DNA of 64,000 nucleotides from Trueperaceae bacterium (lineage in GTDB: Bacteria > Deinococcota > Deinococci > Deinococcales > Trueperaceae). The DNA lies in NCBI GenBank assembly GCA_023954415.1, contig JAMLIB010000005.1, positions 124,001 to 188,000 of the forward strand, written 5' to 3'. The position numbers were made by a program, and so were the translations under genes. Below the pieces are notes generated by a model. That model saw only the letters and a list, made by a program, of their open reading frames with translations. It did no database searches and was not told the origin of the DNA. Positions 890 to 8,751 of this stretch are shown here, one piece after another (the stretch's first letter is position 1; each line of letters begins with the position of its first letter).

Positions 890-1627
890 TCAGCGCCCCA
901 AGACGAGCCCAACCACCCAGTAGAAGAGCACCGCCAGCGGCAGGGCGGGCAGCATGGCGGCCACCCTGAGGCGCTTGACGTCGAGGAGCCCCAAGCCGAG
1001 CGCGACGATCATGAGCCCGCCGACGCCGTTGACGAGCAGCACGCGCGGGTCGGCGGCTGGGTCGGGTATCAGGTTCGAGAACGCCCCGGCAGCCAGCGAC
1101 AGGCCCCCTTGGTAGACGAGCACGACGAGGGCGGAGGCGAGGACGCCGAAGCCGAAGCTGGCCGCCAACGCGAGCGCCGAGAAGCCGTCGAGCGCCGACT
1201 TGAGGACGAGGAAGCCCGCCTCTCCAGATAGACCGTTCTGGATACTGCCGAGGAGCGTCAGCGGACCGACGCAGAAGAGGAGGGAGGCCGCGACGAACCC
1301 TTCCGTGAACCGCCCCTTGCCCTTCAGGCGCGCCTTGAGGAGCACGCCGAGCCGCTCGAGACCGGCCTCGATGCGCCACCATTCCCCGAGGGGCGCCCCG
1401 ATGGCGAGGGCCATGAGGCCGACGATCACGCCGGGCGGGTCGGTGACCTTGGCCAGGTCGAAGGCGTTCGCGATGCCGATGTACACCGTCACGAGGCCGA
1501 TGGCCTGCATGACGGCCTCGGTGATCCGAGACGGCAGCTTGCCGCTCACCGCAAGACCGATGGCGGCGCCCCCGACCACGGTCGCCACGTTGAGCCACGT
1601 GCCCCAGGTCTGGTCGAAGAAGGTCAT
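890..1627 (-). CDS. DUF554 family integral membrane protein
   Basis: A 245-residue polytopic membrane protein of the DUF554 (YdfK-like) family. It opens with a hydrophobic segment containing GTWLNVATVVGGAAIGL and has the family-typical glycine-rich pattern in its first half. About six or seven membrane segments run to the C terminus, which ends FYWVVGLVLGR. The molecular function of DUF554 proteins is not established. It is the last gene of a tightly overlapping leftward operon: its ATG at 1627 overlaps the stop of the preceding gene (ATGA), so translation is probably coupled. The family assignment is fairly sure; no function is claimed. Confidence 0.8.
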   Translation of the reverse strand: MTFFDQTWGTWLNVATVVGGAAIGLAVSGKLPSRITEAVMQAIGLVTVYIGIANAFDLAKVTDPPGVIVGLMALAIGAPLGEWWRIEAGLERLGVLLKARLKGKGRFTEGFVAASLLFCVGPLTLLGSIQNGLSGEAGFLVLKSALDGFSALALAASFGFGVLASALVVLVYQGGLSLAAGAFSNLIPDPAADPRVLLVNGVGGLMIVALGLGLLDVKRLRVAAMLPALPLAVLFYWVVGLVLGR

Positions 1628-2319
1628 GCGGCCCCGCCCTCGGGCGGGGCTCGGCGCAAGACGAGGACCGTGACGCCGGCGCCGACGACTAGGGGGATCC
1701 CGACCAGCCAGATCAGCCAGGTCGACAGCGAGCGGGGGGCGACGGGCGTCGGCGGCAGCACGAACGGGATAGCGCCGTTGACCGCGCCGCCGACCTCGAG
1801 CGGCACGTTGGCGATCGCCTCCTCGTTCAGGAAGGTCGTGTCGCGCACACTGAGCGTGTACGTGCCCGCGGCAGGGGCCCGGAGCGTGCCGCGGTAACTC
1901 CCCTCCGCCGCGCCCTCGGCGAACTGGCCGGAGGCCTCGTCGGGAGTGACGGCCAGGAACTCGCTCGCCTCCGTGCCGACGACGCTCTCGGGCACCGGCG
2001 GGCCGTCGCGGTCCAGCGCCCGCAGCTCGACCCTCACCCGGGCCTTCTCGACGGGGGTGAGGAGGGTGTCCTCCAGGGTCAGGTCGATCCGCAAGGGCTC
2101 GCCGGCCACGGGCGGGTCGGGCGCCACGCTCAGCTTCCCGATGACGAGCGTGGCGTGGGCGTCGGCCGGCCGCCACACGAGGAGCGTGGCGCACGCCAGC
2201 GCCGCCGCCAGGCGCGCGCCTGCGCGCGCCTGCGCCCGGGCGACGCGGAGGACCGGGCGAGCCGCAGGCACGCGCGGGCACGCGCGCCGCACGGCACACG
2301 CCCGATGGTCAGCGCCCAT
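1624..2319 (-). CDS. Membrane-anchored FixH/YtkA-like beta-sandwich protein
   Basis: A 231-residue exported protein. After an Arg-rich N terminus there is a signal-like hydrophobic stretch (about 33-54), then a domain of about 120 residues with repeated beta-strand patterns (APDPPVAGEPLRIDLTLED, GSYRGTLRAPAAGTYTLSVRD), and a single C-terminal membrane segment (about 200-221). The fold pattern resembles YtkA-like or FixH-type domains, a guess from strand and turn spacing rather than diagnostic residues. The ATG at 2319 overlaps the vanY stop by 11 nt; GTG codons inside the Arg-rich leader are alternative starts. It lies in the same operon as a second YtkA-like lipoprotein and an iron-sulfur membrane protein, so a role in respiratory or metal cofactor handling is possible. 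Confidence 0.55.
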   Translation of the reverse strand: MGADHRACAVRRACPRVPAARPVLRVARAQARAGARLAAALACATLLVWRPADAHATLVIGKLSVAPDPPVAGEPLRIDLTLEDTLLTPVEKARVRVELRALDRDGPPVPESVVGTEASEFLAVTPDEASGQFAEGAAEGSYRGTLRAPAAGTYTLSVRDTTFLNEEAIANVPLEVGGAVNGAIPFVLPPTPVAPRSLSTWLIWLVGIPLVVGAGVTVLVLRRAPPEGGAA

Positions 2320-3328
2320 CGGCCACCGAACGGTTCAGCAGGTACTCCCGCAGGGTGAGGCCGGACGCGCGGACGTCCGCGGCCAGCTCGCGCCCGACGT
2401 AGCGGTAGTGCCAAGGCTCGTACATGTAGCAGGTGACGCCTTCCTTGCCGGGCGGGTAGCTCATGACGAAGCCGTAGCGCCAGGCGTTCTCCGCGACCCA
2501 CGCGCCCTCCGGGGTGGTCGCCCAGTCATCCAGGTCCCACGGCTCCGGCCCGGCGAGGCTGCGCAGGTCCATGGCCGTGCCGAGCTGGTGCTCGGAGTGG
2601 CCGGCCCGGGCGCTCGAGCGCAACGCCTGGTCGTAGCCGTCCTCCTTCACCCAGTAGGCGAAGGTGGACTCCTGGTAGGCGAAGGAGCGGTAGGCGGACT
2701 GGACGGCGAGCGCCACGCCGGCCGCGTCCGCCGCAGTCAGGAGCTCCCGGAGGTCGGGCAGGACGACGGCCCTTAGCGTCATGCCCGCTGGCGCCGCTCC
2801 CGGTGCGACGTCCGCGAGGGCCACGGCGAGCTCCACCAGGTCGTCCGGCGCGTAGTCGCTCGCCAGCCTGAAGCGCGTATCCAGGACCGTGTACTGCCAC
2901 TGGTCCACGGTCCCGAGCGGGGCGGGGTCGTCGGCGTAGGTACATGCCGGCTGCTCCTCGGCGGAGGCCTGTCGCGGGTCGGTCTGCCCGGCGGCGGCGG
3001 GCTGGTCGGTCGGCTCCGGCAGCGTCGCGGTCGGCTCCGGCGTCGCGGGCTCCGACCGTTCGAGCTCCCGGTCGGCCGGCGCTTCCAGGCGGTCTGAGGC
3101 GGGCTCCCGCATGGAGCCGCCGTCCGCTCGCGCCTGCGGCGCCTCGGCGCCCCTGGCCGGGTCCGCACGCCCGTCGGCCGCGCCCGCCGCCACCGCCGTC
3201 CAGACGACGATGAGGGCGAGCGCCGCCAGCACGCCGAGCGCGCGCAGGGTGCGGCGTCGGTCGGGGACTGCGCGCCGCGGTTCGCTCGGCGCGTTCGCGG
3301 CCGGACGCCGGTCGTTGGCCGGCTTCAA
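2309..3328 (-). CDS. Membrane-anchored D-alanyl-D-alanine carboxypeptidase, VanY/M15B family
   Basis: A 339-residue zinc peptidase that trims D-Ala-D-Ala stem peptides of peptidoglycan outside the membrane. It has one N-terminal membrane anchor (about 29-50), a Pro/Glu/Ala-rich linker (about 51-128) and a C-terminal catalytic domain. That domain carries the SxHxxGxAxD motif SEHQLGTAMD (ligands H247, D254) and the ExWH motif EPWH (E304, H307). The chosen start is TTG at 3328, overlapping the stop of the upstream iron-sulfur gene (TTGA), in line with overlaps at every other junction of this operon. An ATG in frame at 3541 would overlap the upstream gene by more than 200 nt and is unlikely. An internal GTG near the anchor is the main alternative. 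Confidence 0.85.
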   Translation of the reverse strand: MKPANDRRPAANAPSEPRRAVPDRRRTLRALGVLAALALIVVWTAVAAGAADGRADPARGAEAPQARADGGSMREPASDRLEAPADRELERSEPATPEPTATLPEPTDQPAAAGQTDPRQASAEEQPACTYADDPAPLGTVDQWQYTVLDTRFRLASDYAPDDLVELAVALADVAPGAAPAGMTLRAVVLPDLRELLTAADAAGVALAVQSAYRSFAYQESTFAYWVKEDGYDQALRSSARAGHSEHQLGTAMDLRSLAGPEPWDLDDWATTPEGAWVAENAWRYGFVMSYPPGKEGVTCYMYEPWHYRYVGRELAADVRASGLTLREYLLNRSVADGR

Positions 3329-4905
3329 GGCAGGGGCCCCGCGAGGGTGCCGCGCATCTCCATGGGTTGGGCCAGGATGACGAGCTGCAGCGCCAGGAAG
3401 CCGAGGACGTAGATGGCCAGCGGCCACATGGCGAGCACGCCGCGCCGCAGCCCGAAGTCGCGGACGCCGATGCGCACGGCCGTCGCCAGACCGAGGCCGG
3501 CGTAGACGGCGCCGAGCAGCGCCTGGATGGGGAAGAGCCACCTGGTGGGGACGACCTGCGCGAGGCGCCAGTGGGGGTCGAGCGGGAAGCCGCGGTACTC
3601 GAAGAAATGCTCGAACACAGGCACCACGCTAAGCGCGCCGGTCAAGAAATGGAAGACGTAGTGCGCCCCCCAGAAGCCGAAGCCGAGCGCGACCGTCACG
3701 TAACCCCACCGTCGGAACGCGGTGAGGGCGGAGGAGCGCTTCCCTCCCAGCCGGTCCGCCGCCCACGCGGACGCGGCGGCGGCGAGCAGTCCAGCGGTCG
3801 TCACCCCGAGGTAGGTCAGGCCGAGGATGAGCGCCTCGCTGCGCGTGCCGAGCGCCTCCGAGAGCCGACCGGTGAACGCGAAGAAGGGGGAGGTCATGGC
3901 CAACGCGTTCACGACGCCCCAGAACGTCAGCAGCACGCCGAGCGCCAAGGCGCTCGCCCCGAACCGCTTGCGCCACGGCTCCTTGCCTAACTCGCGCCCG
4001 GGCGCCCTGACGCTCAACGCCACGTTGTCGTAAGGGCACGCGCGCACGCAGTTGAAGCAGAAGGTGCAGTCGAGGTTGGACGTGATGGTGGGTACGAGGA
4101 GGTCGCTCTCACAGCCCGGGAAGTAGCCGCTCCCGTTCGGGCTCACGATCTCGCTCGTAGGGATGAACGCCGCCCTGGCGGGCGCCGTCATGATCGCCGA
4201 CGACGCGGCCCGGGCGGGCGCCGCCCCGTTCGGGGTGCTCATGCGGCCGTGCAGGCACGGCTTATGGACGCACTGCCGGCACACGTCGGGATCCACGGCG
4301 ACGATCTGCGTGGGCGAGGCCGCGCTGAGCGCGAAGTTGAAGTTGCCGAGGGGGCAGACGTACCGGCAGAACGTGCCGGCCGGGAAGAGCGTGTCGACGA
4401 CGAGTGCCGACCCGAAGTAGCCGACGGCCAGCCAGGCCGTGAGCCATGGGCTCGCCCAGAGGTCGAACGCCTCGTAGGCGATGAAGTAGGCCAGCGTGAT
4501 GGCAAGCACGAGCCACTTGTTGCGTAAGGCGCGGGGGAACCGGAGGTCCGCCGGGAGCAGCCGCTTCAAGCGGCGCGAGGCTCCACGCGTGAGCATTAGG
4601 GGGCAGGCGGCGCAGAAGGCGTTGCCGAAGAGCGCCAGAGCGAGGACGACGAGGCCCCGGTAGTGCAGCCACGTCGCCGTGGTGGCGACGTTGCGGGGCG
4701 CCAGCTGGCGCCCGGTCAACCCGTCGACGATCACGAACAGGGCGAGGAGTAGGAGCGGGAGCTGCAGTGCGAACCTGGCGTACTTCCAACGGACGAACCG
4801 CCGCACACCTGGCAGCCTGAAGAGGTCGAAACCCCGCGGCTGGTCCACGTAGGGTCCGGCGGCGAGCGGCAACTCCACGGCGCCGGCGCTGCGCGCGGGC
4901 GTCAT
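3325..4905 (-). CDS. Polytopic membrane protein with ferredoxin-type [4Fe-4S] clusters (NapH/CcoG/NosR-like)
   Basis: A 526-residue membrane iron-sulfur protein with roughly nine to ten hydrophobic segments. Cysteine motifs occur in the order C98-x2-C101P, C180-x3-C184P (these two follow membrane helices, as in NapH/NosR/CcoG-type proteins), C209-x2-C212-x4-C217, C265, and C280-x2-C283-x2-C286-x3-C290P, the last a classic [4Fe-4S] ferredoxin motif. Between C217 and C265 lies an Ala/Pro-rich insert (about 222-256). Such proteins pass electrons across or along the membrane, for example in nitrate or nitrous-oxide reduction or in copper handling for cbb3 oxidase assembly; which applies here is unknown. 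The start ATG overlaps the stop of the YtkA-like lipoprotein gene, a pairing reminiscent of ccoG-ccoH. Confidence 0.75.
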   Translation of the reverse strand: MTPARSAGAVELPLAAGPYVDQPRGFDLFRLPGVRRFVRWKYARFALQLPLLLLALFVIVDGLTGRQLAPRNVATTATWLHYRGLVVLALALFGNAFCAACPLMLTRGASRRLKRLLPADLRFPRALRNKWLVLAITLAYFIAYEAFDLWASPWLTAWLAVGYFGSALVVDTLFPAGTFCRYVCPLGNFNFALSAASPTQIVAVDPDVCRQCVHKPCLHGRMSTPNGAAPARAASSAIMTAPARAAFIPTSEIVSPNGSGYFPGCESDLLVPTITSNLDCTFCFNCVRACPYDNVALSVRAPGRELGKEPWRKRFGASALALGVLLTFWGVVNALAMTSPFFAFTGRLSEALGTRSEALILGLTYLGVTTAGLLAAAASAWAADRLGGKRSSALTAFRRWGYVTVALGFGFWGAHYVFHFLTGALSVVPVFEHFFEYRGFPLDPHWRLAQVVPTRWLFPIQALLGAVYAGLGLATAVRIGVRDFGLRRGVLAMWPLAIYVLGFLALQLVILAQPMEMRGTLAGPLP

Positions 4906-5348
4906 CGCGCCCGGACGCTGGTCAGGAGCTCGCCGACGGCCCGCTGGCCGCCCGAGGTGGTCACGTTCACGCTCACGATCCAGTCGCCCGCCATGCCGAG
5001 TACCAGGTCGTCGACCCGGTAGGTGCCGCCGCCGACCTCCGTCGCCGTCGCCATGGCCGGCGCCATGCCGGGGTGGGTCATGTCGCCTTCCACCTCGACC
5101 TTCGCGCCGAGTACCGGGACGCCCCCTTCCGACACCTCGATCACCACGGGCACGATGCCGGGGTGCGCCTCGCCGGCGAGCCGGGCGGTGACCTTGATGG
5201 CGCCGCCCTCGGCCCGGTCGCCGGGCGGCTTGCAGGCGGCCAAGGCCAGCAGCGCGCTCAGCAGCAGCAACGCCGCGGCCAGCCTGGGCGGGGTACGAGC
5301 GGCACGGCGGAACGGGGACGCATGACTGAGGGGGCGCGTGGCGACCAT
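4902..5348 (-). CDS. Lipoprotein with YtkA/FixH-like domain
   Basis: A 148-residue predicted lipoprotein. An Arg-rich N terminus and hydrophobic core end in the lipobox LAAC (Cys at about 39), followed by one YtkA/FixH-like domain. The strand pattern and the block GDMTHPGMAPAMATATEVGGG, then TYRVDDLVLGMAGDWIVSV, match the typical Met/Pro-rich turn and the closing G-x-W motif of that family. YtkA-like and FixH domains occur with copper or haem-copper oxidase assembly genes. Met and His residues (MTHPGM) could bind copper, but this is inference. It is the first gene of the five-gene overlapping operon, and its stop overlaps the start of the iron-sulfur membrane protein (ATGA). Confidence 0.7.
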   Translation of the reverse strand: MVATRPLSHASPFRRAARTPPRLAAALLLLSALLALAACKPPGDRAEGGAIKVTARLAGEAHPGIVPVVIEVSEGGVPVLGAKVEVEGDMTHPGMAPAMATATEVGGGTYRVDDLVLGMAGDWIVSVNVTTSGGQRAVGELLTSVRAR

Positions 5349-5358
5349 CTACGCGGGC

Positions 5359-5364
5359 AGGCTA
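5359..5364 (-). promoter_or_regulatory. -10 box of the lipoprotein/iron-sulfur operon
   Basis: TAGCCT on the minus strand, 10 nt before the lipoprotein ATG. It overlaps the amidase stop codon at 5362-5364. The predicted message would have a leader of only about 3 nt. No -35 is evident. Read-through from the amidase gene remains possible. Confidence 0.35.
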
Positions 5365-6285
5365 CCACTTGTCAGGGACGCGCCCCATGCTGGTCAGATA
5401 CGTAACGATGCCGTCTTCCAGGGCGGCGGCCAGCGCGTCAGGCGCTTCCAGGAGCCGCCGGTCGTCGGGGTTGGAGAGGTAGCCGAGCTCGACGAGCAGG
5501 GCGGGCGTGCCGCGGTCGACGGTGTGCTCGAAGCGCCGGTCGTTGAAGGCGTAGTACTCGAACATGTTGCCGGAAACGTTGGCGTCGTCGTCGCGCATGC
5601 GCGTGGCCTTGAGGACCGCCCGGTCGACCTGCAGCTTCAGCTGCAGCTCGCGCGGGTTGCGGGCCGGCCAGAAGTGGGCGCTCTTGTAACCGGAGCGGGC
5701 GGTGTCAGGGTTCGAGTCGATGTGCACCGAGATCACGAGGTCCGCCCGGTAGCGTGGCGGAACGGTGGCAGGCAGCACGTCGACGACCGCGCCGCGGGCG
5801 CGAAGCCTCGCGGCCAACGCGTCGACGATGGCCGCGTTCACGCTCACCTCGTCCAAGCCTGCGTAATGACCGCCCGTGCTGTAACGGAGGGTGGCGAGCT
5901 CGTCCGGTTGTGAGCCGGCGTCGAGGTGGCCTACCTGCAGGCCGACCCTCACGGGGCCGATGACGCGGTTGGCCAGCCAGCGCACGGGTCCGGCACGGTA
6001 GACGCGCACCTCGCCGGCTCCCGGCAGCGCCTGGGCCGCGCGCCTGAGGCCATCGGCGACCATGCCGAACGTGGCGGCCGCCACCTCGCCGCCCCGCTCG
6101 CGCACCGCCGTCGCCACGTTGATGGTGAGGAGGAGCGCCATGGCTACCAGGAAGCCGCGGCCGAGCAGCTTGCGCCTACGCAGCAGCCCCGGTGGCCGCT
6201 CCTCGGCTTCCATGCGGTCGTCGGCCGGCCGCGCGGTGCGCGGCGGCCGGGAAGCCAGTGGGTCGCGCCGCTCCTCGCCGGTCAC
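5362..6285 (-). CDS. N-acetylmuramoyl-L-alanine amidase (Amidase_3), membrane-anchored
   Basis: A 307-residue cell-wall amidase that cleaves the lactyl-peptide bond of peptidoglycan in the envelope. A cytoplasmic basic N terminus (to about 41) precedes one membrane segment (about 43-61), a spacer, and an Amidase_3 domain (about 110-305). Zinc ligands fit H120 (VGLQVGHLD), E145 (LDEVSVN) and H188 (ISVHID), with the catalytic Glu at E266 (LLVELGYLSNPDD). The usual DPGHGG around the first His is replaced by LQVGHLDAG, a mild divergence. The GTG start at 6285 is supported by a TAGCAT box 6 nt upstream (leaderless). The next operon begins 13 nt downstream. Confidence 0.88.
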   Translation of the reverse strand: MTGEERRDPLASRPPRTARPADDRMEAEERPPGLLRRRKLLGRGFLVAMALLLTINVATAVRERGGEVAAATFGMVADGLRRAAQALPGAGEVRVYRAGPVRWLANRVIGPVRVGLQVGHLDAGSQPDELATLRYSTGGHYAGLDEVSVNAAIVDALAARLRARGAVVDVLPATVPPRYRADLVISVHIDSNPDTARSGYKSAHFWPARNPRELQLKLQVDRAVLKATRMRDDDANVSGNMFEYYAFNDRRFEHTVDRGTPALLVELGYLSNPDDRRLLEAPDALAAALEDGIVTYLTSMGRVPDKW

Positions 6286-6321: not shown

Positions 6322-6975
6322 TCATAACCGCACTGCCTCGAGCCAGTAGATGATGTGCTCGTTGACGTTCTCGAGGTGATCGCCGAGGCGCTCGAGGTAC
6401 CGGGCTATCGCGGAGAGCTCGGTCGCGCGTCCGATGGTGCCCGTGTCCGCGAGCATGTAGGTCAGGAGCTCGCGCTGGATCTGGTCGTACAGGTCGTCGA
6501 TCTCGGAATCCAACGCGTGGGCGCGCCGCGCCGCCTCCGCGTCGGCCTCCGCCACCGCCTTGGTTGTCGTGTCGAGCATGACGAACAGGACCTCGAAGAT
6601 GCGCTGCATGTCCAGGTACTTCTTGATGGGTGGCTGCTTCGCGAGCTGGTGGCCTGCCTCCGCGACGTGCTCGGCGTAGTCGCCTGCGCGTTCGATGTCG
6701 GCCAGCATCTGCAGGGCGGCGCCGAGGAAGCGTAGGTCGCGGGCGGCCGGCTGCCGGCGCGCGATCACGGTGAGGACCCTGGTCTCGAGATCGGACTGGA
6801 TGCCGTCCACCAGGTCGTCGAGCTCGGCGCAGCGACGCGCCCCGTCCGGGTCCGCGTCGATGAGCGAGCGCCGCGCCCACTCGCAACTCTCCCTGACCAG
6901 GCTGAGCATGCGGACGAGGTCGCCGGTGATGGCCTGCAGGTCGAGCTCGAGCGGTGTCAACGACGGGGTCGCCAT
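6322..6975 (-). CDS. phoU: Phosphate-signalling protein PhoU
   Basis: A 217-residue all-helical PhoU: two three-helix repeats, seen as matching E/D-rich patterns around LRFLGAALQMLADIERAGDYAEHVAE and its second-half partner ELSAIARYLERLGDHLENVNEHI. PhoU links the Pst phosphate transporter to the PhoR kinase and damps Pho regulon expression. A much longer open frame continues upstream but is a high-GC artefact. ATG at 6975 gives the normal family length, and a TACGCT box lies 9 nt upstream. It is divergent from phoB and phoR with a 96-nt shared regulatory gap. No pst transporter genes are in the window. Confidence 0.92.
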   Translation of the reverse strand: MATPSLTPLELDLQAITGDLVRMLSLVRESCEWARRSLIDADPDGARRCAELDDLVDGIQSDLETRVLTVIARRQPAARDLRFLGAALQMLADIERAGDYAEHVAEAGHQLAKQPPIKKYLDMQRIFEVLFVMLDTTTKAVAEADAEAARRAHALDSEIDDLYDQIQRELLTYMLADTGTIGRATELSAIARYLERLGDHLENVNEHIIYWLEAVRL

Positions 6976-6984
6976 GTGGCCAGT

Positions 6985-6990
6985 AGCGTA
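6985..6990 (-). promoter_or_regulatory. phoU -10 box
   Basis: TACGCT on the minus strand, 9 nt before the phoU ATG. The message would have a leader of only 2-3 nt. The spacing is looser than for most other starts in the window. Confidence 0.4.
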
Positions 6991-7000
6991 GCGCGGTCGG

Positions 7001-7022
7001 GTCAGGGCGATGTCAGGGCGGC
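7001..7022. promoter_or_regulatory. Candidate Pho-box: 11-bp-period direct repeat
   Basis: GTCAGGGCG at 7001-7009 is repeated exactly at 7012-7020, an 11-bp period like the two half-sites of a PhoB box. A separate exact CTGTCAT heptamer reads on the minus strand at 7045-7051. Both lie between divergent phoU and phoB, so autoregulation by PhoB is plausible. Confidence 0.4.
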
Positions 7023-7059
7023 GGTACCCCGGGGAGACGAGGCCATGACAGAGCGCTCG

Positions 7060-7065
7060 TAGAAT
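7060..7065 (+). promoter_or_regulatory. phoB leaderless -10 box
   Basis: TAGAAT followed by 6 nt and the phoB ATG at 7072. No -35-like hexamer is visible at 17-18 bp, which would fit an activator-dependent promoter. Confidence 0.6.
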
Positions 7066-7071
7066 GACCGC

Positions 7072-7779
7072 ATGGCCGCCCAAACGGTCCTGGTGGTCGA
7101 GGACGACGCTGCGGTGCGCGAGGTGGTCGCGTTCCACCTCAGCCGGGCCGGCTTCGCCGTTCGCGAGGCGTCCGACGCCGCTCAGGCGCTGGCCGCCGCG
7201 CCGGACGCCGCCCTCGTCGTGCTCGACTGGATGTTGCCGGGCGAGAGCGGGCTGACGGTCTTGAAACGCCTTCGGGACTCCTCGGCCGCCGAGCTCCCCG
7301 TGCTCATGCTCACCGCCCGCGCCCGCGAGGCGGAGCGTGTCGAGGGGCTCGAGTCTGGTGCGGACGACTACCTGACCAAACCGTTCTCCGCCGCGGAGCT
7401 CGTTGCGCGCGTGCGCGCGCTCCTGCGCCGGGCCGTCCCACGCAAGCGCGTGACCGTCGGCCATCTGAGCGTCGACGCCGACGCCGGCGAGGTGACGTGG
7501 CGCGGCGAACGGTGCCGGCTCACGCCGCGGGAGTTCGGTCTGCTCGCCTTCCTCGCCGCCAACCCCGGACGCGTGTACTCGCGCTTCGAGCTCCTCGACA
7601 AGGTCTGGGGCGAGGGTTTCGTCGGCACGGAGCGGACCGTCGACCAGCACGTCGCTCAGCTCCGCGCCGTCGTGGCAGACGATGTCGTCGCCACTGTAAG
7701 GGGGCGGGGCTACCGCCTCGGGGAGTGCGGAGGCGACCGTCTCGCCGACGCTCACCCTCAAGGCCGGGCGGAGCGGTAG
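7072..7779 (+). CDS. phoB: OmpR/PhoB-type response regulator (phosphate regulon)
   Basis: A 235-residue two-domain regulator. The receiver (about 5-115) has the acidic pair E10/D11, phosphoacceptor D52 (LVVLDWMLPG), and K104 in LTKPF. The C-terminal winged-helix DNA-binding domain (about 135-228) shows LTPREFGLLAFLA, RVYSRFELLDKVWG and TVDQHVAQLR. It probably binds Pho-box repeats and recruits RNA polymerase under phosphate starvation. The assignment to phosphate control rests on the adjacent phoU and the PhoR-like kinase directly downstream. The kinase ATG follows its TAG stop with no gap, so the two are co-transcribed. Confidence 0.88.
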   Translation: MAAQTVLVVEDDAAVREVVAFHLSRAGFAVREASDAAQALAAAPDAALVVLDWMLPGESGLTVLKRLRDSSAAELPVLMLTARAREAERVEGLESGADDYLTKPFSAAELVARVRALLRRAVPRKRVTVGHLSVDADAGEVTWRGERCRLTPREFGLLAFLAANPGRVYSRFELLDKVWGEGFVGTERTVDQHVAQLRAVVADDVVATVRGRGYRLGECGGDRLADAHPQGRAER

Positions 7780-8751
7780 ATGGACCGGAGCGCGGCGCAC
7801 GCGCTCCCCTGGTGGGACGTTCTGAAGGAAGGCGTCGTCCTGCTCGACTCCGGGAGCGTGCTCGACCTCAACCACGCGGCGGCCCTCCTCCTCGACGTCG
7901 ATAGGGAACGGGCGCGCGGAGCGGCAGCCATCGGCGTGTTCCGTGACCATCGGCTCGAGGCCATGTGGCGCTCGGGGGTTGGCGGCGAGATCGAACTCCG
8001 CTCCAAGGCCGTCAGGGTGACCGCGTTCCCCGGCGGGCTCGTGTTCGAGGACGTGAGCGAACTCCGGCTCGGCCAGCGCGACGCATCGGAGCTGCTCTCC
8101 GTGCTCTCGCACGAGCTGCGCACTCCCGTCACTACCGTTCGCGGGGCGCTCGAGGCGCTCGCGGCGCCGGCCGCGGACGGTGACGACCCGAGCGAGGTGC
8201 GCTTCCGTGAACGCTTCCTAGCGCTCGCGCTCGCGGAAGCCGAGCGGCTCTCTCGCCTGCTCGACGACTTGACCGTCCAGTCGCGCCCGCCGAGGGAGAG
8301 GAGCGTCGCGCTCGGAGCCGTCGTCGCCAAGGCCGCTGCGTTGCTGCGGGCGCGGGCGGACGCCGTCGACGTCCGGTTCGCCACCGAGCTGGAGGACCTC
8401 GTCGTCTGGGCGGACGAGGACAAGCTCCTCCAGGTGATCCTGAACCTCATGGAGAACGCGGTCGTGCACGGACCCGGCGGCGGGACGGTCACGGTCGCGG
8501 CGTGGGGTGCCGACGCCATGGCCCAACTCGAAGTGCGCGACGAGGGCGCGCCGCTCGATCCCACCGGCGTGCCGGCGCTGTTCGCACCGCACACGCAGGG
8601 CCGCCACCGCGGCCAGGGCGCGGGCCTCGGGCTCTACATCGTCAGGTCGATCGTGCAGCGCTGGGGCGGCGCCGTGTGGGCCGGGCCGGGCAGCGCCGTG
8701 GCGGCGGGCAACGTTTTCGGGTTCAGCGTGCCGCTCGCGGACCACGCCTGA
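7780..8751 (+). CDS. phoR: PhoR-like sensor histidine kinase without membrane segments
   Basis: A 323-residue kinase. A short PAS-like N-terminal domain (about 10-95) is followed by HisKA with LSHELRTP (phospho-His H111) and a HATPase domain with N-box N226 (LNLMENAVVHG), G1 D254 (VRDEG) and G2 GQGAGLGL (278-285). It autophosphorylates and donates to the adjacent response regulator. Unlike most PhoR proteins it has no hydrophobic membrane segment, so it is probably cytoplasmic and must sense phosphate status through a partner such as PhoU. The start is fixed by direct adjacency to the phoB stop. A sensor for another signal is possible, but the phoU neighbour favours PhoR. Confidence 0.82.
   Translation: MDRSAAHALPWWDVLKEGVVLLDSGSVLDLNHAAALLLDVDRERARGAAAIGVFRDHRLEAMWRSGVGGEIELRSKAVRVTAFPGGLVFEDVSELRLGQRDASELLSVLSHELRTPVTTVRGALEALAAPAADGDDPSEVRFRERFLALALAEAERLSRLLDDLTVQSRPPRERSVALGAVVAKAAALLRARADAVDVRFATELEDLVVWADEDKLLQVILNLMENAVVHGPGGGTVTVAAWGADAMAQLEVRDEGAPLDPTGVPALFAPHTQGRHRGQGAGLGLYIVRSIVQRWGGAVWAGPGSAVAAGNVFGFSVPLADHA

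Follow-up and report, generated by a model that had tools for sequence, protein, structure and literature searches.

CcoG, a membrane iron-sulfur protein, is a cupric reductase (PMC7558416). In Bacillus subtilis, the YtkA proteins CtaK and YcnJ support CuA assembly (PMC13344008, PMC9145763), and in YcnJ both CopC and CopD are fused to YtkA (PMC13344008). Here we analysed a locus with partial likeness to these systems in a 64,000-nucleotide stretch of DNA (hereafter, the window) from a Trueperaceae bacterium (GCA_023954415.1, JAMLIB010000005.1, positions 124,001–188,000 of the forward strand), at window positions 890–5364, for which a five-gene operon with overlapping junctions had been proposed. 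All five open reading frames proved real, with coordinates checked in the window and all on the minus strand (Table 1), and the junctions overlap as claimed (ATGA, TTGA, 11 nt and ATGA). Such short start/stop overlaps are ordinary in dense high-GC genomes and unremarkable alone. The 11-nt overlap, between the VanY gene and the gene of the second YtkA-fold protein, depends on an ATG at 2319, with which the leader is unusually long (54 residues); with the alternative GTG start nine codons downstream, this overlap would vanish. The VanY open reading frame requires a TTG start. The VanY and DUF554 assignments of the original prediction are firm, both passing the Pfam gathering cut-offs (PF02557, 125 vs 25 bits; PF04474, 227.8 vs 25.1 bits). 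Nothing useful emerged from the literature on DUF554, or on polyferredoxin in combination with SCO1.

Table 1. Genes of the three-gene core and its neighbours in the window.
Feature	Role	Position in window	Strand	Evidence
YtkA-like lipoprotein (CtaK-like)	core gene 1	4902..5348	-	Pfam YtkA 7e-13, 30-homologue alignment
Membrane Fe-S protein	core gene 2	3325..4905	-	NapH below cut-off, hhalign to NapH/YccM, 12 Cys
VanY-type D,D-carboxypeptidase	neighbour, not core	2309..3328	-	Pfam VanY 2e-36; adjoins core only in Trueperaceae
Second YtkA-fold protein	core gene 3	1624..2319	-	22-homologue alignment, AlphaFold, CrdA fold match
DUF554 membrane protein	neighbour, not core	890..1627	-	Pfam 1e-67; adjoins core only in Trueperaceae
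N-acetylmuramoyl-L-alanine amidase	neighbour, not core	5362..6285	-	Pfam Amidase_3 2e-11; Trueperaceae-only neighbour

Gene surroundings were compared for Fe-S protein homologues at 38 loci and in 20 Chloroflexota regions, with genes mapped by iterative profile searches. Most Deinococcota loci, with Trueperaceae among them, and all 20 Chloroflexota regions have the lipoprotein gene directly upstream of the Fe-S gene; exceptions include several Trueperaceae loci (L043, L047 and L049), with no lipoprotein gene adjoining the Fe-S gene. In most Deinococcota loci, the second YtkA-fold gene comes after the Fe-S gene; in four Deinococcales MAGs it precedes it, and in L046 it is divergent. The conserved unit is thus made up of three genes, encoding the YtkA lipoprotein, the NapH/CcoG-like Fe-S protein and the second YtkA-fold protein, while VanY and DUF554 are bystanders, that is, local neighbours: VanY adjoins the core in 12 Trueperaceae loci and DUF554 in nine, neither being always present, and they stand beside it in no non-Trueperaceae Deinococcota locus examined and in none of the 20 Chloroflexota regions. 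Of the linkage on which the original prediction had staked its five-gene system, only that of the three-gene core holds outside Trueperaceae; the five genes together come apart there. Since the genes for the amidase, PhoU, GatC and SerS are likewise retained beside the core in Trueperaceae, the linkage of VanY and DUF554 reflects a family-level gene neighbourhood. The proposal of one five-gene operon system did not survive this comparison, being ruled out by synteny, and it is highly improbable that all five genes form one envelope system linking copper or redox chemistry to cell-wall remodelling, in spite of the overlapping reading frames in the window and the recurrence of both genes in Trueperaceae.

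No copper genes other than the core adjoin the locus in the window, where positions 6322–8751 hold PhoU (-) facing a response regulator and a histidine kinase (+), an ordinary phosphate-type neighbourhood. Separately, several Trueperaceae have, after the lipoprotein gene, a gene for a small His-containing membrane protein with a 'RAPP' motif at or near its end (L035:3066-3383, L044:4761-5090 and L037:4188-4493, all +).

We consider it probable that the three-gene core is an extracytoplasmic module that captures copper, reduces it and delivers it to heme-copper oxidases, in the manner of CcoG/CcoH combined with CtaK. The membrane Fe-S protein belongs to the same superfamily as CcoG. Its CxxCP and CxxxCP motifs (invariant C98/C101 and C180/C184) are followed by a ferredoxin part, and with eight further cysteines the 'multi-cluster' label it had been given is fair; among 32 Fe-S proteins, no variation was seen in these 12 cysteines or in M337, H415 and H419, and hardly any in M515, M517 and H81. 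Nine transmembrane helices were estimated by simple hydropathy and the positive-inside rule, after correction by eye of the raw scan, which had flagged a Cys-rich ferredoxin stretch (269–287) and shifted the seventh helix; this estimate places the cysteine regions in the cytoplasm and the conserved His and Met residues on the outer side. With hhalign, NapH and the CcoG homologue YccM could both be aligned to the N-terminal half, while the C-terminal membrane half, which bears H415, H419, M337, M515 and M517, is extra compared with both. No C-terminal Ig-like periplasmic domain is present, the C-terminal part consisting of transmembrane helices; YccM also lacks this domain (PMC7558416). Together, the 12 cysteines and the predicted outward-facing His/Met residues would suit a role in copper chemistry.

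Membership of the CcoG or NapH families was considered and rejected: no CcoG model figured among the NCBIfam matches of the window protein or of 32 members, and the score against the NapH/MauN model TIGR02163 was far under the curated cut-off (38 vs 213 bits). The AlphaFold model is of fair quality (pLDDT 78, with a poorly modelled stretch at 213–269) and gave no credible fold match in the PDB (best Foldseek E 0.21, best Z 7.3). The relationship of the N-terminal half to NapH, together with weak matches of two family members to NosR, could speak for a general envelope electron-transfer unit with no special copper role, in which, for instance, a periplasmic reductase would draw electrons from quinol in the way of NapGH or NosR; we regard this as quite improbable, given that no nap genes lie near any copy examined and that the neighbours are copper genes. 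Copies of the window Fe-S protein on plasmids were not found; a distant relative (24% identity over 91%) is carried by plasmid pDFI1 of Deinococcus ficus (L161:4934-7215), where it directly follows a hypothetical protein without a Pfam match.

As to the two small proteins, the first had been called a YtkA-like lipoprotein with Met and His, which is borne out by both Pfam (PF13115, 49.4 vs a gathering cut-off of 25.9 bits, 7e-13) and an alignment of 30 homologues, in which the lipobox Cys39 and M90, H92, M95 and M119 are invariant. The same 30 sequences show the conserved His and Met characteristic of CtaK-type proteins, and these four invariant residues would suit copper. In profile comparison, the sole significant PDB sequence match was CrdA (chain 9ll2, 1e-7); three of the lipoprotein Met positions align with Met residues of CrdA, whose structure was solved with silver ions.

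The second small protein had also been assigned to the YtkA/FixH-like group; its predicted fold and profile comparison support this, whereas its Pfam YtkA score does not reach the cut-off (13.8 vs 25.9 bits). The two small proteins are related by profile comparison (96%, 2e-9). The structure prediction that had been proposed as a check gave a model with pLDDT 85.7, whose best fold match was Helicobacter pylori CrdA (TMt 0.73, Z 10.0); the matches further include PmoD and, at Z 8.2, CcoH from a cbb3 complex. Unrelated entries reach Z 9 in the same search and, Ig-like folds being common, the CrdA match is only moderately specific; it favours kinship, falling short of proof, and the profile comparison of the small proteins adds to it. 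The protein has a signal peptide and a C-terminal transmembrane anchor, and His55 is invariant in 22 homologues, preceded in all of them by a signal-peptidase-like motif (A/V at -3, A/G at -1), so that cleavage would make His55 residue 1 of the mature protein. CopC- and YcnI-type proteins bind Cu(II) via an N-terminal His, and the N-terminal His that the predicted cleavage exposes would suit copper here too. The Chloroflexota third protein is more divergent, and its N-terminal His is often missing.

The recurring theme of the core's neighbours in relatives is copper genes. SCO1, the most frequent partner of the core in Chloroflexota, lies (as SCO1/SenC) shortly downstream of it in seven loci (L106, L113, L115 and L117–L120), and in one Anaerolineae locus (L066) cytochrome oxidase subunit I (COX1) and SCO1 lie just upstream. 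In the Chloroflexota locus L107 (6888-7841, -), the lipoprotein immediately upstream of the Fe-S gene is YtkA fused to the copper chaperone domain PCu(A)C. In a Trueperaceae MAG (L035), CopC, CopD, MbnP and a di-haem MauG-type protein are inserted between the lipoprotein and Fe-S genes, and CopC or CopD also occur in the loci L036, L037 and L065. The original prediction had ventured, as one possibility, a role in copper handling, and these neighbours, together with the CrdA-like predicted fold, support that guess.

The same surroundings bear on two other readings. That NapH-type proteins are electron-transfer proteins and that SCO1 is the commonest Chloroflexota partner would fit an Fe-S protein acting as an electron conduit that keeps SCO or apo-CuA thiols reduced, with the YtkA-fold pair carrying the copper, all the more as SCO and CuA require reduced cysteines (PMC9145763, on TlpA); we find this rather unlikely, however, as the invariant His and Met of the membrane half fit copper better than thiols and no SCO gene stands beside the core in the Deinococcota loci examined. 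Alternatively, the CopC and CopD genes inserted beside the Fe-S gene in several Trueperaceae, and the conservation of the transmembrane His and Met, might mean that the Fe-S protein itself moves copper through the membrane, for import or export, partnering the two soluble domains in a CopD-like way while its clusters determine whether the cargo is oxidised or reduced. This is improbable: the conserved His and Met are all predicted on the outer side, which leaves no evident path, and no credible transporter fold match was obtained.

Within L035 (3551-7873, +), a His/Met-rich protein without a Pfam match joins the CopC, CopD, MbnP and MauG insert, and the MbnP/MauG pair there is outside a methanobactin context. 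Distant Fe-S paralogues in Chloroflexota adjoin YtkA-like, heavy-metal-associated and cupredoxin/COX2-like proteins; in L091, L094 and L095, a PCYCGC protein and a cupredoxin/COX2-like protein anchored in the membrane recur together with them, in what resembles another, still uncharacterised set for copper redox chemistry.

The core could handle copper as follows, where the binding of copper, its reduction, the source of the electrons and the direction in which copper is passed on are what we infer. The second YtkA-fold protein would capture Cu(II) through its predicted mature N-terminal His; electrons of the Fe-S protein's cytoplasmic clusters would cross the membrane to reach its outward-facing His/Met site, where Cu(II) would be reduced to Cu(I); and the Met/His lipoprotein would accept Cu(I) and hand it on to the oxidase, via SCO where present. 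The observed support for this scheme comprises the conserved linkage, the copper-gene neighbourhoods, the chaperone fusion and the residue conservation, together with the predicted fold of the second protein. In a more specific and tentative form, the Fe-S protein may represent a second bacterial family of transmembrane cupric reductases, whose cytoplasmic clusters feed a His/Met copper site in the extra C-terminal half and which, with the Cu(II)-capturing N-terminal-His protein and the Cu(I)-accepting lipoprotein, metallates CuA and cbb3-type oxidases in Deinococcota and Chloroflexota. A three-gene module conserved in two phyla, with candidate ligands named, is a directly testable candidate.

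The distribution of the Fe-S gene was considered in relation to oxidases. It is found in 46 of the 61 Deinococcota genomes, and COX1 in 22/22 Chloroflexota genomes with a close Fe-S homologue vs 209/251 overall (p = 0.015, uncorrected for relatedness). A genome that is 98% complete and has neither COX1 nor COX2 (G050) also has no Fe-S gene, which its three congeners possess. Four Deinococcota genomes that possess the Fe-S gene lack COX2, and in them a CcoO/CcoP-like cytochrome comes after the one oxidase subunit I; by our own reading of the open reading frames, this oxidase is probably of the cbb3 type, and the module would therefore not be limited to CuA. A restriction of the module to CuA oxidases, which we had considered, is contradicted by these four genomes. 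Counting against the proposed role, some genomes with CuA oxidases (G015, G016 and G037) lack the Fe-S gene, as does one entire family (f4), in which PCu(A)C is present. Mutual exclusion with PCu(A)C was likewise rejected: the two are nearly complementary in Deinococcota, where 8/9 PCu(A)C genomes have no Fe-S gene, but this pattern comes essentially from one family and is contradicted in Chloroflexota, where PCu(A)C is present in 13/22 Fe-S genomes. The genome of the window itself encodes two COX2 proteins (one with a cytochrome c domain, the other of the short ba3 type) and, away from the core, three SCO1 genes.

Among described systems, CcoG-CcoH (fixGH), to which the original prediction had likened the locus, remains a sound comparison, with an Fe-S and YtkA gene pair found near SCO1, COX1 and copper genes in relatives. 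In both, the gene of a membrane Fe-S protein lies beside that of a small Ig-like membrane protein, and the alignment with YccM and the CcoH fold match point the same way. As differences, the core Fe-S protein gave no match to a CcoG model, has no C-terminal Ig domain and carries a further membrane half with invariant His and Met; the core moreover adds a YtkA lipoprotein, and the oxidases carry CuA in most core genomes. What the core shares with B. subtilis CtaK is a lipoprotein that has a YtkA domain and in which His and Met are conserved, whereas no Fe-S membrane partner of CtaK is described in the literature searched; the CopC and CopD genes beside the core lipoprotein in relatives correspond to domains fused to YtkA in YcnJ (PMC13344008). 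H. pylori CrdA (9ll2, 9ll4) resembles the second protein in fold and the lipoprotein in sequence, with three Met aligned, but it is described as a copper resistance determinant, with no Fe-S partner implied. NapH/MauN shares the CxxCP and CxxxCP motifs and the ferredoxin part with the N-terminal half of the core Fe-S protein, which differs in its score far below the cut-off, its extra C-terminal membrane half and its copper rather than nap neighbours. The Fe-S protein should thus be filed neither as CcoG nor as NapH and, if our reading is right, would work like CcoG with a different outer half.
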